From a virus, in IMG/VR virus record IMGVR_UViG_3300031565_000160, positions 1 through 36,920 of that record: a stretch of DNA of 36,920 bases; one strand, given 5' to 3'. Both the position numbers and the translations under genes were made by a program. The first letter of the stretch is position 1; the number at the start of each line of letters is the position of its first letter. Shown here in pieces: positions 9,110 through 21,766 of the stretch. The notes beneath the pieces were generated by a model, which was not told the origin of the DNA, searched no databases, and saw only the letters and a list, made by a program, of their open reading frames with translations.

Positions 9110-9153
9110 TTCTTAGATTTGTTCCATAGTTTGTTTTGTTTAAGTGAATATTT

Positions 9154-9182
9154 AAAAGCCCTGGTGATTCGGGGTTTTTTTT
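9154..9182 (+). terminator. Rho-independent terminator of the late/lysis operon
   Basis: AAAAGCCC at 9154-9161 pairs with GGGTTTTT at 9172-9179 (one G-T pair), closing a ten-base loop, and the 3' side runs into a T tract through 9182. It lies 59 bases after the last lysis gene and before the early region, where the late transcript should end. Confidence 0.75.
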
Positions 9183-9236
9183 ATGCCTAATAAAAAATAA
9201 TTGTATATTAATAGTATATATTAAATATACTTTGTA

Positions 9237-9270: not shown

Positions 9271-9495
9271 ATGACAACTTTAGCAATCAAAACATCAATT
9301 CAAGATTTAAGCAACGGACATCAACTTGCAATGTCAAATTTGCCAATATGGTCTCAAATAATGCAATTAGCTGATGAGAAAAAACATTTTGCATCAGAAA
9401 TAGTTGAAAGAGCAATCTTAGATCACAAACCAATAAGTGAGAAACAAGCATGGGTAGTAGCATTTTTTGCAAAAAACAACGGACTAACAAACTAA
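9271..9495 (+). CDS. Small early protein, unknown
   Basis: This 74-residue protein starts at the ATG at 9271, after a purine/A-rich leader; a frame-compatible ATG at 9232 lies within the promoter box region and is unlikely. It has two helical parts, the second being ADEKKHFASEIVERAILDHK, then KPISEKQAWVVAFFAKNNG. The S-E-K-Q-A segment resembles a motif of small phage and plasmid proteins of unknown function. It is the first gene of the early operon. Confidence 0.55.
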   Translation: MTTLAIKTSIQDLSNGHQLAMSNLPIWSQIMQLADEKKHFASEIVERAILDHKPISEKQAWVVAFFAKNNGLTN

Positions 9496-13607: not shown

Positions 13608-13615
13608 TATATTTA
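13608..13615 (+). promoter_or_regulatory. Candidate -7 promoter box (TATATTTA) for the helicase operon
   Basis: TATATTTAC begins two bases after the previous stop. It matches the -7 consensus except for its last base and is the same form as the box at 9237. No clear -33 TTG is present. Transcription from here would begin about eight bases before the structured leader. Confidence 0.4.
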
Positions 13616-13628
13616 CAATGTTGTTCGA

Positions 13629-13706
13629 CTCTCACACTAGAACGATTCAAAACATTAGAAGCCTTTTTGTATTTCAGAGTGAGAGCTGATTTACATTGAG
13701 GCTTTT
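13629..13706 (+). ncRNA. Pseudoknot-forming 5' leader of the helicase operon
   Basis: Two interleaved stems are visible. CTCTCAC at 13629-13635 pairs with GTGAGAG at 13679-13685 (7 bp), and 13657-13665 pairs with 13698-13706 (9 bp including two G-T pairs). The second arm of stem 1 lies in the loop of stem 2, so both together make an H-type pseudoknot. Stem 2 is followed by TTAATTT and the start codon 13 bases later. It may act as a terminator/attenuator or control ribosome access. No known riboswitch is recognised. Confidence 0.45.
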
Positions 13707-13719
13707 TTAATTTACAATT

Positions 13720-15081
13720 ATGAACTACAAAGATTTCTTAGAAGCAAAAAGGCATTCATTACCTTCTTATGGTTTTGAGTGTAAATGGTTTCCAGACATA
13801 GCGTTTGACTTTCAAAAACACGTTATACAAAAATCAATTGAAAAAGGCCGTATAGCTAACTTTTTAGATACAGGATTAGGTAAGACATTAGTGCAATTAT
13901 CAGAGGCTTATAATGTCGTTTTACATACTAATAAGAATGTTCTAATACTTACTCCTTTAGCTGTTGCCTTTCAGTTTATTAAAGAAGCTCAAAAGATTGG
14001 TATTGATGATATTGAATATTCAAAGGATGGAAATTTTACAAAGAAAATAGTGATATGCAATTATGAAAGATTACACTATTTTAATTCAGATGATTTCATT
14101 TGTGTAATGTTGGATGAAAGCTCTATATTAAAAAATTTTGATGGTAAAATTAAAAGCCAGATAACAGCGTTTATTAAAAAAGTACCTTATAGATTTTTAA
14201 GTACAGCAACACCATCACCAAATGATTTTATTGAGTTAGGCACATCAAGCGAAGCACTAGGGTATATGGGTTATATGGATATGTTAGGAAAGTTTTTTAA
14301 GAATAATAATAATTCAATTGATCCTAAACACGCTGGAGAAAAATGGTATTTAAAACCTCATGCTGAAAATGATTTTTTTGCGTGGGTAAATCAATGGTCT
14401 ATACTTGCAAAAATGCCTAGTGATTTAGGTTATTCGGATGAAAGATATATTTTACCAGAATTAATTATTAATAAACATTGGATTAAAAATAACAGCTTAA
14501 TTTCTATTGATGGACAAACTCAATTATTTAATTTGAAAGCAAAAGGGTTTCATGAAATAAGACACGAACAGAGACAAACTATAAAAGAAAGATGTGAGAA
14601 AGCTGTTCAACTAGCTGATAACAAAACTTCTGTTTACTGGTGTAATTTGAATGATGAAAGTAAACTACTAAAAGAATTAGATAGCGAATCAGTTGAGATT
14701 ATTGGAAGTATGTCGATGGAAAAGAAAGAGGATATACTTGTAAATTTTGCAGATGGTAACATTAAAAGAATTATTACAAAAGCTAAGATGACTGGTATGG
14801 GTTTGAATTGGCAACATTGTAACCATTCTGTTTTCTTCCCTACTTATAGTTATGAACAATTATACCAAGCTATGAGGCGTTTCTGGAGGTTTGGACAAAA
14901 ACAAACAGTAACTATTGACCTAGTATTATCTGATGGTATGGAGGCTGTTTTAGAGGCGATAGAAACAAAAACAGAAAAGGCTAAACAGCTACATAAAAAT
15001 CTTACTGAAAATGTTAATAGGTCTTTTACATTTGAGCAAAAAGAATTTAATAAAAAAGTAATTAAACCTAGTTTTATATGA
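13720..15081 (+). CDS. SNF2-family DNA helicase/translocase
   Basis: This 453-residue superfamily 2 ATPase has motif I DTGLGKT (50-56), motif II DESS (132-135) in LDESSILKNFDGK, motif III STATPSP (161-167) and motif VI QAMRRFWRFGQ (383-393). The R-F-W-R-F/I-G-Q form of motif VI is diagnostic of the SNF2/Rad54-like group, which moves along double-stranded DNA rather than unwinding it. It is the first gene of a three-gene set with MazG-like and DNA methyltransferase genes, each overlapping the next by 4 bases. It may remodel recombination intermediates or displace host proteins. Confidence 0.85.
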   Translation: MNYKDFLEAKRHSLPSYGFECKWFPDIAFDFQKHVIQKSIEKGRIANFLDTGLGKTLVQLSEAYNVVLHTNKNVLILTPLAVAFQFIKEAQKIGIDDIEYSKDGNFTKKIVICNYERLHYFNSDDFICVMLDESSILKNFDGKIKSQITAFIKKVPYRFLSTATPSPNDFIELGTSSEALGYMGYMDMLGKFFKNNNNSIDPKHAGEKWYLKPHAENDFFAWVNQWSILAKMPSDLGYSDERYILPELIINKHWIKNNSLISIDGQTQLFNLKAKGFHEIRHEQRQTIKERCEKAVQLADNKTSVYWCNLNDESKLLKELDSESVEIIGSMSMEKKEDILVNFADGNIKRIITKAKMTGMGLNWQHCNHSVFFPTYSYEQLYQAMRRFWRFGQKQTVTIDLVLSDGMEAVLEAIETKTEKAKQLHKNLTENVNRSFTFEQKEFNKKVIKPSFI

Positions 15082-18465: not shown

Positions 18466-18473
18466 TATATTTG
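18466..18473 (+). promoter_or_regulatory. Candidate -7 promoter box (TATATTTG) for the replication module
   Basis: An exact TAnnTTTG box directly after the previous stop codon. Upstream TTGs lie at 14 and 23 bases rather than 19-21, so the -33 element is imperfect. It would give a transcript starting about ten bases before the structured leader at 18489. Confidence 0.45.
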
Positions 18474-18488
18474 TATAGTTAATAGATA

Positions 18489-18559
18489 CTCGCCTATCTA
18501 ATATTAACGAAGAAATTTAAGGGATTACCCGACGTTGGCGAGAACGGAGGGTGTCCCTT
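18489..18559 (+). ncRNA. Pseudoknot-forming 5' leader of the replication operon
   Basis: CTCGCC at 18489-18494 pairs with GGCGAG at 18537-18542 (6 bp). 18519-18530 pairs with 18549-18559 (AAGGGA with TCCCTT, one G-T pair and a one-base bulge, then ACCC with GGGT). The 3' arm of stem 1 sits in the loop of stem 2, so this is an H-type pseudoknot. TTCTTATTTT and the start codon follow 9 bases later. The layout closely parallels the leader at 13629-13706. Function could be transcription attenuation or control of initiation. Confidence 0.55.
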
Positions 18560-18568
18560 TCTTATTTT

Positions 18569-19210
18569 ATGGCAGAGAATAAAAAATCATTTGTAATGTA
18601 CTGCGATCAAAAGGAGATGTTTGAGCATTTACCTCCTGATATGTGCAAGAAAGTATTAATGCACTTGTTTGATTATGTCAATGATAAAAACCCAATATCA
18701 GATGATCCAATAGTAAATGCTTTGTTTGCTCCAATCAAACATCAACTAAAACGTGATTTAATAAAATGGGAATCAAGAGCATCAACAAGTAGAGAAAATG
18801 GTAAACTTGGAGGTAGACCAAAGAAAGAAAAACCTAAAAAACCCAGCGGGTTAATTAATAACCCAGACAAACCTACAAAACCTGTTAATGTTAATGTAAC
18901 TGTTAATGATAATGATACTGTTAATGTTAATGACACTGTAATAAAGAAAAAAGAGGGGTTGATTTTTCCATTTGATTCAGAAGAGTTTATAAATGCTTGG
19001 TCTATGTGGAAAGAATATAAGAAAAAAGAGCATAAGTTTAGTTACAAAAGCGTTGTATCAGAACAAGCAGCTTTAAAAAGTTTATCGGATAAATCAAATG
19101 GTAATGAATCAGATGCTTTAAAAATTATAATGAACAGTATTGAGAACGGATGGAAAGGATTTTTTAAAATAAATACTAACGGAAAAGAAAATTTAATATC
19201 ATGGAACTAG
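18569..19210 (+). CDS. Replisome organiser / initiator-like protein
   Basis: This 213-residue protein starts at the ATG at 18569, after the leader stem. The N-terminal domain (residues 5-95: SFVMYCDQKEMFEHLPPDMC, then FAPIKHQLKRDLIKWESR and NGKLGGRPKK) resembles DUF6291-type phage replication proteins. A low-complexity Val/Asn/Asp/Thr linker (about 105-130) follows. The C-terminal part, ALKIIMNSIENGWKGFFKIN, matches the DnaD/DnaT-like domain that loads helicase. The linker DNA carries repeats (18881-18946) that may be the replication origin. It is followed by dnaB-type genes. Confidence 0.65.
   Translation: MAENKKSFVMYCDQKEMFEHLPPDMCKKVLMHLFDYVNDKNPISDDPIVNALFAPIKHQLKRDLIKWESRASTSRENGKLGGRPKKEKPKKPSGLINNPDKPTKPVNVNVTVNDNDTVNVNDTVIKKKEGLIFPFDSEEFINAWSMWKEYKKKEHKFSYKSVVSEQAALKSLSDKSNGNESDALKIIMNSIENGWKGFFKINTNGKENLISWN
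18881..18946 (+). repeat. Iteron-like GTTAATG repeats, candidate replication origin
   Basis: Five copies of GTTAATG occur in 50 bases (starting at 18884, 18890, 18902, 18920 and 18926), three of them within TGTTAATG, with related AATGATA spacers. They encode the Val-Asn-Asp linker of the replisome organiser. The stretch after them (18940-18980) is A/T-rich, as in a duplex-unwinding element. Origin repeats inside the initiator gene are known from lambda O and similar phages. Confidence 0.45.
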
Positions 19211-21010: not shown

Positions 21011-21023
21011 TTATATAGTATTA

Positions 21024-21157
21024 CCTACAACGGCAAAGTATATGAAAAGTAGGCGTTTGTAACAACAAACACTCGGGACTAGAGTTGGCGATATGGGTCA
21101 TTGATAAATTTTTAGCAGGACAGAAACCAGCCTATTTTTTATATGCATTGTTGTATG
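21024..21157 (+). repeat. attC-like foldback element 1
   Basis: Imperfect terminal inverted repeats enclose about 75 bases. TACAAC (21026-21031) pairs with GTTGTA (21150-21155). An unpaired spacer of 6 versus 3 bases follows, and then 21038-21054 pairs with 21130-21146 over 17 positions including three G-T pairs. A short box pair, an asymmetric unpaired spacer and a long stem is the architecture of folded integron attC sites. The box does not match the GTTRRRY core exactly, so the call is by shape. A GTTTGT/ACAAAC hairpin lies inside (21055-21070). Confidence 0.5.
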
Positions 21158-21191
21158 GGCTTTTGCCCTTGACGTTTTAATGGCATACAAC
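21150..21191 (+). repeat. Inverted repeat GTTGTATG / CATACAAC with inner hairpin
   Basis: GTTGTATG (21150-21157) is the exact reverse complement of CATACAAC (21184-21191), and GGGC-TTTT-GCCC (21157-21168) forms a tight hairpin within. The left arm is also used by foldback element 1, so two mutually exclusive folds are possible. Confidence 0.55.
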
Positions 21192-21197
21192 GCTATG

Positions 21198-21229
21198 AGT
21201 AAGACCCGTTTTTTCTATGGGTTCTTACT
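21198..21229 (+). terminator. Strong hairpin, probable terminator of the replication operon
   Basis: AGTAAGACCC (21198-21207) pairs with 21219-21229 over ten pairs with a one-base bulge around an 11-base loop. It lies about 190 bases after the helicase stop and is followed by TTGTGTT, a modest T-rich run. It is the best candidate for ending transcription of the replication genes before the promoter at 21278. Confidence 0.5.
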
Positions 21230-21277
21230 TTGTGTTATCTATTGCGGAATTAATTTAAAACTTTTTTTGTATTATAG

Positions 21278-21307
21278 TTGTATTGTAATATAATTGTATT
21301 ATATTTG
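21278..21307 (+). promoter_or_regulatory. Promoter with exact -33 TTG and -7 TATATTTG
   Basis: TTG (21278-21280) and TATATTTG (21300-21307) are 19 bases apart, a full match to the Bacteroidota sigma-A consensus and the best promoter in the window. It lies 22 bases before the small ORF at 21330. Confidence 0.7.
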
Positions 21308-21329
21308 TGTATACAAAAACAACAAAGAT

Positions 21330-21419
21330 ATGATACGCACTAAATCACTAAAAGAATACAAAAGATTAAAAGCAAAAGGTTTAAACGTAGAATTAGTAAC
21401 TAAAGCAGATTTAAACTAA
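21330..21419 (+). CDS. 29-residue basic microprotein
   Basis: The first ORF after a strong promoter, ending TAATG into the next gene. The product is basic and helical (RTKSLKEYKRLKAKGLNVEL) and ends in TKADLN. It is too short for a known family. Position before a ribbon-helix-helix gene in a cassette-like unit suggests a small regulatory or toxin-antitoxin-like pair, but this is not shown. Confidence 0.45.
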   Translation: MIRTKSLKEYKRLKAKGLNVELVTKADLN

Positions 21420-21550
21420 TGAAAGTACCCTACCAAATAAGAATAGAACCCGAACTACTTGAACAACTAAAACAAGTAGCAAAAGAAAACGGCACAAGTG
21501 TAAACCATGAAATACGGCAGGCTATACGAAAATTACTTAGTGATAGATAA
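21419..21550 (+). CDS. Arc-type ribbon-helix-helix DNA-binding protein
   Basis: This 43-residue protein is a minimal Arc-like domain: strand VPYQIRIEPE, helix LLEQLKQVAKENG, turn TSVN, helix HEIRQAIRKLLSDR. The N-S/H-E-I-x-x-A-I-R pattern is classical. It would bind DNA as a dimer, probably at the promoter just upstream. It shares a base with the previous stop, so the two genes are co-translated. Confidence 0.75.
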   Translation: MKVPYQIRIEPELLEQLKQVAKENGTSVNHEIRQAIRKLLSDR

Positions 21551-21641
21551 TGCTTAATGTAAAACCCTTTGATTAGCTGACATAAATAAAAAACTAAAAT
21601 ACTTCGGGATTGAAACATCTGACTTTCAAACTTGGTAATGC

Positions 21642-21766
21642 CACCTAACGGAAAGTATATGGTGCGTTGCTTGCGCCAAGTTAAATTGAAATACAAAACT
21701 TGATAATATGAAAAATGTTGAATTGAAAAACGAACCCCCCACTTTTGGCAATGTGCTGTTATGTGC
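21642..21766 (+). repeat. attC-like element 2 (shares core word with element 1)
   Basis: The left end has AACGGAAAGTATATG (21647-21661), which equals AACGGCAAAGTATATG of element 1 (21029-21044) apart from one missing base. CACCTAAC (21642-21649) pairs with GTTATGTG (21758-21765) over seven of eight positions, and ACCTAAC fits the attC R'' consensus RYYYAAC. A local GGTGCG/TGCGCC hairpin (21661-21677) and an AACTTGG/CCAAGTT repeat (21629-21635 with 21676-21682) are also present. Its right end overlaps the 5' part of the next ORF. The 157 bases at 21551-21707 hold no credible gene otherwise. Confidence 0.4.

Follow-up and report, generated by a model that had tools for sequence, protein, structure and literature searches.

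Comparative analysis has revealed a new class of structured RNA, comprising 5' leaders of genes in flavobacterial phages, in which each leader folds into a pair of kissing hairpins; this fold is shown by comparative evidence and supported by covariation. About 100 non-redundant phage leaders share the layout, in front of homologous as well as unrelated genes. Two of them lie in the window, i.e. the whole stretch of DNA analyzed, an IMG/VR virus record of 36,920 bases whose nearest cultured relatives are Flavobacterium phages. A reading of the window made from sequence alone (the sequence-only reading) had proposed two pseudoknotted leaders with a shared layout and different bases, the pattern expected of a class of structured RNA. 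Both leaders were located exactly where it had placed them (leader 1 at 13608-13719, leader 2 at 18466-18568), and this claim held on the evidence of shuffled sequences and of homologues elsewhere.

The two leaders of the window

Unconstrained MFE folding yielded two hairpins per leader, with their complementary loops left unpaired (Table 1). In leader 2 the loops CUCGCC and GGCGAG are six bases each and fully complementary, and the hairpin loops of leader 1 contain CUCUCAC and GUGAGAG. What had been read as stem 1 is the loop-loop (kissing) helix K:K', with P1 enclosing its 5' arm and the short P3 its 3' arm, while the former stem 2 is P2, the base of hairpin 2, which is continued via an internal loop by P3 around K'. 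The nested pseudoknot of the sequence-only reading thus held in part: its stems are real, but they belong to a pair of kissing hairpins, and both P1 (hairpin 1) and P3 had been missed. An H-type pseudoknot only was ruled out, since P1 and P3 enclose the loops throughout. The distances given earlier for leader 2 were right (15 nt between TATATTTG and CTCGCC, 24 nt between CTCGCC and AAGGGA, and 9 nt from stem 2 to the ATG), but for leader 1 the distance from stem 2 to the start codon is 15 nt and not 13 nt.

Table 1. Positions in the window of the two leaders, their parts and the genes behind them.
Feature	Position	Strand	Basis
Leader 1, -7 box TATATTTA	13608-13615	+	sequence
Leader 1, hairpin 1 (GTTGTTC/GAACGAT), K in loop	13620-13646	+	MFE fold
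Leader 1, kissing arm K, CTCTCAC	13629-13635	+	sequence, four-helix descriptor
Leader 1, hairpin 2 (P2 AAGCCTT 13659-13665 with GAGGCTT 13698-13704; GTA/TAC; P3 TCAG/CTGA)	13659-13704	+	four-helix descriptor, MFE fold
Leader 1, kissing arm K', GTGAGAG	13679-13685	+	sequence, four-helix descriptor
Leader 1, T-tract and spacer before ATG	13705-13719	+	sequence
Superfamily 2 helicase gene (PF00271) behind leader 1, ATG at 13720	13720-15081	+	
Leader 2, -7 promoter box TATATTTG, Bacteroidota-type, directly 3' of upstream stop codon	18466-18473	+	sequence; promoter profile
Leader 2, hairpin 1 (P1 18478-18488 with 18495-18508; 6-nt loop is kissing arm K)	18478-18508	+	unconstrained MFE fold
Leader 2, kissing arm K, CTCGCC	18489-18494	+	sequence, four-helix descriptor, fold
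Leader 2, A-rich linker	18509-18518	+	sequence, four-helix descriptor
Leader 2, hairpin 2 (P2 AAGGGA 18519-18524 with TCCCTT 18554-18559; CCC/GGG; internal loop GAC/GGA; P3 GTT/AAC)	18519-18559	+	four-helix descriptor, MFE fold
Leader 2, kissing arm K', GGCGAG, the entire hairpin 2 loop	18537-18542	+	four-helix descriptor, MFE fold
Leader 2, T-rich tract TCTTATTTT, hairpin 2 to ATG	18560-18568	+	sequence; class profile
Gene for replisome organiser-like protein, DUF6291 (PF19808), behind leader 2, ATG at 18569	18569-19210	+	

A referee may object that nested stems of this kind arise by chance. A two-stem scan without geometry limits did give many loose matches, and geometry as well as P1 and P3 were therefore added. 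With a two-stem descriptor that scores stacking energy over two crossing stems with tight loop lengths, the leaders were the only matches at or below the cut-off of -22 kcal/mol on both strands of the window (-25.5 and -25.1), the chance rate being 0.225 matches per shuffled strand. They were also the sole matches, on either strand, to a four-helix descriptor (leader 1, -40.2; leader 2, -37.9), and among 10,000 local dinucleotide shuffles of each, none reached the score of leader 1 and one that of leader 2; 0 of 60 shuffled windows reached -34. This shuffle test had been set beforehand and was passed. An ordinary terminator combined with chance pairing is ruled out by the shuffles and by the covariation described below.

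Relatives, covariation and distribution

We examined 32 IMG/VR loci with a replisome organiser homologue and 80 (kept of 550) with a helicase homologue; the same layout, built from unrelated bases, recurs upstream of these genes, albeit by no means in every case. Over all loci and the window, the four-helix descriptor at or below -36.5 yielded 46 matches on the plus strand vs. none on the minus strand, with both window leaders belonging to this group. Cultured Flavobacterium, Cellulophaga and Olleya phages are among the carriers: hattifnatt9-1 has three copies, tooticki6-1 two and lillamy9-7 one, and single copies occur in Cellulophaga phages phi10:1, phi19:1, phi13:2 and phi19:3 and in Olleya phage Harreka_1. 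The descriptor found no element in phages elemoC and OP947161 or in Bacteroides phage B124-14.

A covariance model, as the sequence-only reading had suggested, was built on N-padded structural seeds, which replaced a MAFFT alignment of the divergent elements that was out of register. This model (R1) comprises P1, P2 and P3 only and is blind to K. In the window it ranked the two leaders first (35.5 bits, E 2.6e-4) and second (leader 2; 20.1 bits, E 0.16), and it picked up further elements in the loci. Leader 2 is weak by R1 alone and is assigned to the class on the strength of its full fold and of the four-helix descriptor. A weak R1 match elsewhere in the window (9150-9185) is a plain terminator-like hairpin, AGCCCTGGTGATTCGGGG then TTTTTTTT, directly before an ATG and without a kissing partner.

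Support for the kissing helix came from two pattern scans of IMG/VR in which the sole constraints were the promoter box and the P3/internal-loop motif, with K, P1 and P2 left unspecified. These K-blind scans found 66 and 89 stretches, and an exact upstream complement of the loop, 7-8 nt long, was present in its own leader in 42 of 42 distinct elements for pattern 1 and in 53 of 56 for pattern 2; when loops were compared with the leaders of other elements as a mismatched control, a complement was found in about 6% and 1%, respectively. In MAFFT alignments of two sub-families, 98.3% (A7) and 99.8% (A8) of cells were paired, with covariation of 0.374 vs. 0.095 in shuffled alignments for A7 and 0.581 vs. 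0.162 for A8; sliding the partner by 1-3 columns left at most 0.046 and 0.082. P1, K:K' and P2 all covary in both sub-families, and the kissing helix itself is 100% paired in each, with 5 of its 7 pairs changed on both sides. The lack of variation in P3 and the internal loop of A7 and A8 reflects the search pattern, in which both were fixed; in the wider set, P3 differs between elements yet stays paired. G-U pairs are tolerated in P2, and the kissing helix measures 6-9 bp across the class. The class therefore meets the criterion of compensatory changes in the loop-loop helix, and the window leaders meet the remaining ones, i.e. P1, linker, P2 with P3 and K:K' in this order, a promoter box upstream, and a U-tract and ATG downstream.

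Some sequence preferences were also seen. K loosely follows the consensus GTNNNNG in A7 and A8, where the internal loop between P2 and P3 is either AGUA/GAA-like (a loop E signature) or UGAU/UGAY and may be a protein-binding motif. The internal loop was also looked at as a possible ligand pocket: GA on both strands was found in 18 of 32 and is not universal across the class.

The two sub-family patterns were found in none of 395 sampled Bacteroidia genomes, a search that did not cover all other sub-families, and R1 recovered one true element from 199 Flavobacteriaceae genomes (L132, positions 304-410), located on a small contig, probably a phage fragment, within a Flavobacteriaceae assembly. 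Another R1 match in these genomes (L133) was false, and weak matches (L129-L131) were rejected. As far as sampled, these results indicate a phage element rather than a chromosomal leader. No known riboswitch had been recognized in the sequence-only reading, and this held: no family in Rfam 15 reached its curated gathering threshold, and relaxed searches gave only chance-level matches far below threshold.

Promoter, U-tract and downstream genes

The anatomy of the element runs from a TAnnTTTG promoter through hairpin 1, an A-rich linker, hairpin 2 and a flush U-tract to the start codon. We profiled the surroundings of 101 non-redundant elements: T occupies -4/-3 ahead of the -7 box in 78-79%, and TTG is enriched at -22/-23 (22 of 101). 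Bacteroidota promoters are of a -33/-7 type, for which both enrichments are as expected. Hairpin 1 starts most often 5-6 nt past TTTG, at or near the inferred transcription start. Past hairpin 2, T is found at the first five positions in 95, 95, 96, 90 and 87% and then in 61%; because the first T-run served to locate the tract, the first three values are inflated. From the start of the U-tract to the start codon the median distance is 12 nt (IQR 10-17). This class profile, a stable hairpin with a flush U-tract, meets the sequence criterion for an intrinsic terminator. In hattifnatt9-1 (L134, MN812207.1) the annotated helicase start at 9441 falls inside the element at 9378-9480; an ATG past the U-tract near 9480 fits homologues better, and the deposited start is likely wrong.

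The position of hairpin 1, only a few nt away from where transcription is inferred to start, is compatible with a role in protecting or processing the 5' end of the mRNA, the kissing complex at +1 either blocking 5' decay or serving as an RNase processing site. We consider this unlikely, as it leaves unexplained the conserved flush U-tract and the position directly before the start codon.

As had been proposed, both window leaders head operons of DNA metabolism, the helicase being the first of a gene run with MazG (15078) and an N6/N4 DNA methylase (15335). The class is wider and includes free-standing homing endonucleases. Among 117 distinct downstream proteins, 45 belong to a homing-endonuclease cluster (NUMOD4/HNH), 14 are replisome organisers or initiators and 7 are superfamily 2 helicases, in addition to unknown-function families of 79 aa (10/117) and 75-80 aa (7/117); GIY-YIG/NUMOD3 proteins, ResIII-like helicases and one primase-like protein were also found. 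This mix is biased by the way the loci were collected. Two sub-families mostly head free-standing homing endonucleases. Two families of 75-80 aa and unknown function lie directly behind the element, one at L221, L226-L228 and L267 and the other at L047, L146, L151 and L173. Between tooticki6-1 and lillamy9-7, homology ends just past the upstream gene and before the promoter, so that leader and HNH gene sit together in a single replaceable cassette. Elsewhere in the window (21011-21707), a long intergenic stretch carries small ORFs as well as a large inverted repeat (AGTAAGACCC..GGGTTCTTACT); one of the ORFs reads MKVPYQIRIEPELLEQLKQ and resembles a ribbon-helix-helix protein.

The location before replication genes and homing endonucleases could also suit a feature of DNA or single-stranded DNA (an origin, recombination or homing site) rather than an RNA, and such a role has been considered for the STAXI pseudoknot (PMC2864571). 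This appears very unlikely, given 1) the fixed orientation with the gene; 2) the flanking of the element by a promoter box on one side and a U-tract on the other; 3) several copies per genome before different genes; and 4) the tolerance of G-U pairs in P2. An attC-like or DNA site was likewise considered and rejected.

The joint control of the two window operons that had been suggested is not shown. The K sequences differ between copies within a phage, the longest cross-match being 3 nt; since the two window kissing helices are sequence-orthogonal, any common signal would need to act via the shared shape, transcription or translation and not via the kissing sequence.

A putative attenuator and known leader systems

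We postulate that the leader acts as a transcription attenuator in which a 5' hairpin holds the loop of the terminator. Transcription from the local TAnnTTTG promoter would yield hairpin 1 first, while hairpin 2 and the U-tract would make up an intrinsic terminator just 5' of the start codon. Being made first, hairpin 1 would capture the loop of hairpin 2 on its emergence, when neither the U-tract nor the 3' arm of P2 has yet been transcribed, and the kissing contact would then set how frequently RNA polymerase stops, and with it the amount and timing of the replication gene or homing endonuclease product. We regard this as the best mechanism and would give it about an even chance of being right; terminator activity is inferred from the sequence only, and there are no transcript, termination or expression data. 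Kissing can favor or oppose termination, and the evidence does not decide whether the contact promotes termination or read-through. A different K for each copy in a phage fits the need for each contact to stay within its own transcript. Given its presence in unrelated phages and in front of unrelated genes, the leader likely relies on host machinery or on RNA folding alone and not on one cognate phage protein.

Several points weigh against the attenuator. A C and an A break up the U-tract of leader 2; translational control would also account for a hairpin and a U-rich stretch beside the start codon; and no ligand, protein or competing alternative fold has been identified that would make the leader a switch rather than a constant brake. 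A bolder version, toward which we lean slightly less than against, is a self-kissing terminator, in which the 5' hairpin reads the loop of the terminator hairpin in the same emerging transcript, providing each gene with a private, sequence-orthogonal attenuator that flavobacterial phages have spread over replication genes and mobile homing endonucleases. If the attenuator reading is true, nature has families of orthogonal kissing terminators, a type that had to be engineered in synthetic biology, and through them phages control when replication genes and homing endonucleases are expressed. For the phages of an abundant group of marine bacteria in which little is known of the signals for transcription and translation, the class itself adds a structured RNA with a tertiary loop-loop contact backed by covariation, and its copies in cultured Flavobacterium, Cellulophaga and Olleya phages make direct testing feasible.

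The known kind to which the element belongs is the cis-acting phage leader RNA, and we found no precedent for its architecture. The literature searched held no prior description in flavobacterial phages, which is weak evidence as most subscription papers were outside the search. By analogy, the nearest functional precedent is found in T4-like phages, whose homing-endonuclease genes I-TevI, I-TevII, I-TevIII, segB, mobE and seg43(25) have leader hairpins, the one of seg43(25) being very stable and just upstream of the RBS (PMC2988022). In both cases a phage mRNA structure lies directly before free-standing or intron homing endonucleases, restraining expression in T4 (PMC2988022). The T4 hairpins sequester the Shine-Dalgarno and are escaped via an internal promoter (PMC2988022), whereas our class has two kissing hairpins, an upstream promoter and a U-tract, and precedes replication genes too. 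Two defining features are hence unmet: in those leaders that were folded and annotated, neither hairpin includes the ATG or the nucleotides preceding it, and TAnnTTTG is upstream of hairpin 1 rather than inside the structure.

This precedent bears on translational control, in which the kissing complex by the start codon would limit or organize 30S access and the U-rich strand would be a landing site for the ribosome or S1 instead of a terminator tract. The start codon is typically just 10-17 nt from the stem, and many downstream genes are homing endonucleases, the kind of gene held back in T4 by RBS hairpins (PMC2988022). Against it, both helices leave the start codon free in the folds obtained; late transcripts escape in T4 by a late promoter inside the structure, while here the promoter is upstream of the whole element; and the T-run directly abuts the base of the stem, as required of a terminator, and is not centered at a fixed distance from the ATG. 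Translational control is possible and remains open.

Another open alternative to the attenuator, which we deem unlikely, is a put-like antiterminator. The leader would bind RNA polymerase at the start of the operon so that downstream pauses and terminators are ignored, with the U-tract as a pause that aids loading. It would account for two hairpins at the 5' end of early replication transcripts without a cognate protein, and HK022 putL has the same placement and two stem-loops (PMC9378689). On the other hand, many copies precede single homing-endonuclease genes, which would gain little from processive read-through; a flush U-tract is not described for put, and a kissing contact is not mentioned in the relevant sections of PMC9378689. 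HK022 put, a cis-acting pair of stem-loops with which early phage transcripts begin (PMC9378689), resembles our class in placement only: put RNAs are defined by a shared sequence, with two hairpins bound to the beta' zinc-binding domain of RNA polymerase, their V-shaped fold includes a triplex, and the terminators they act on are distant (PMC9378689), whereas in our class only the shape is conserved, the paired bases varying freely, with a loop-loop helix and a U-tract of its own.

With regard to structure rather than placement, the STAXI motif is also a pseudoknotted element near DNA-handling genes (PMC2864571), but it is a tandem repeat with frequent UUCG loops (PMC2864571), and no Rfam family matches our elements. 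Kissing-loop controls include ColE1 RNA I/RNA II, the IncI-type repZ pseudoknot and the HIV-1 DIS, which share complementary loops of 6-8 nt, often with one unpaired 5' purine followed by 7 paired bases. In contrast to these systems, which are intermolecular or control replication priming or translation, the contact in the phage leaders is intramolecular and joins a 5' hairpin with a terminator-like hairpin.
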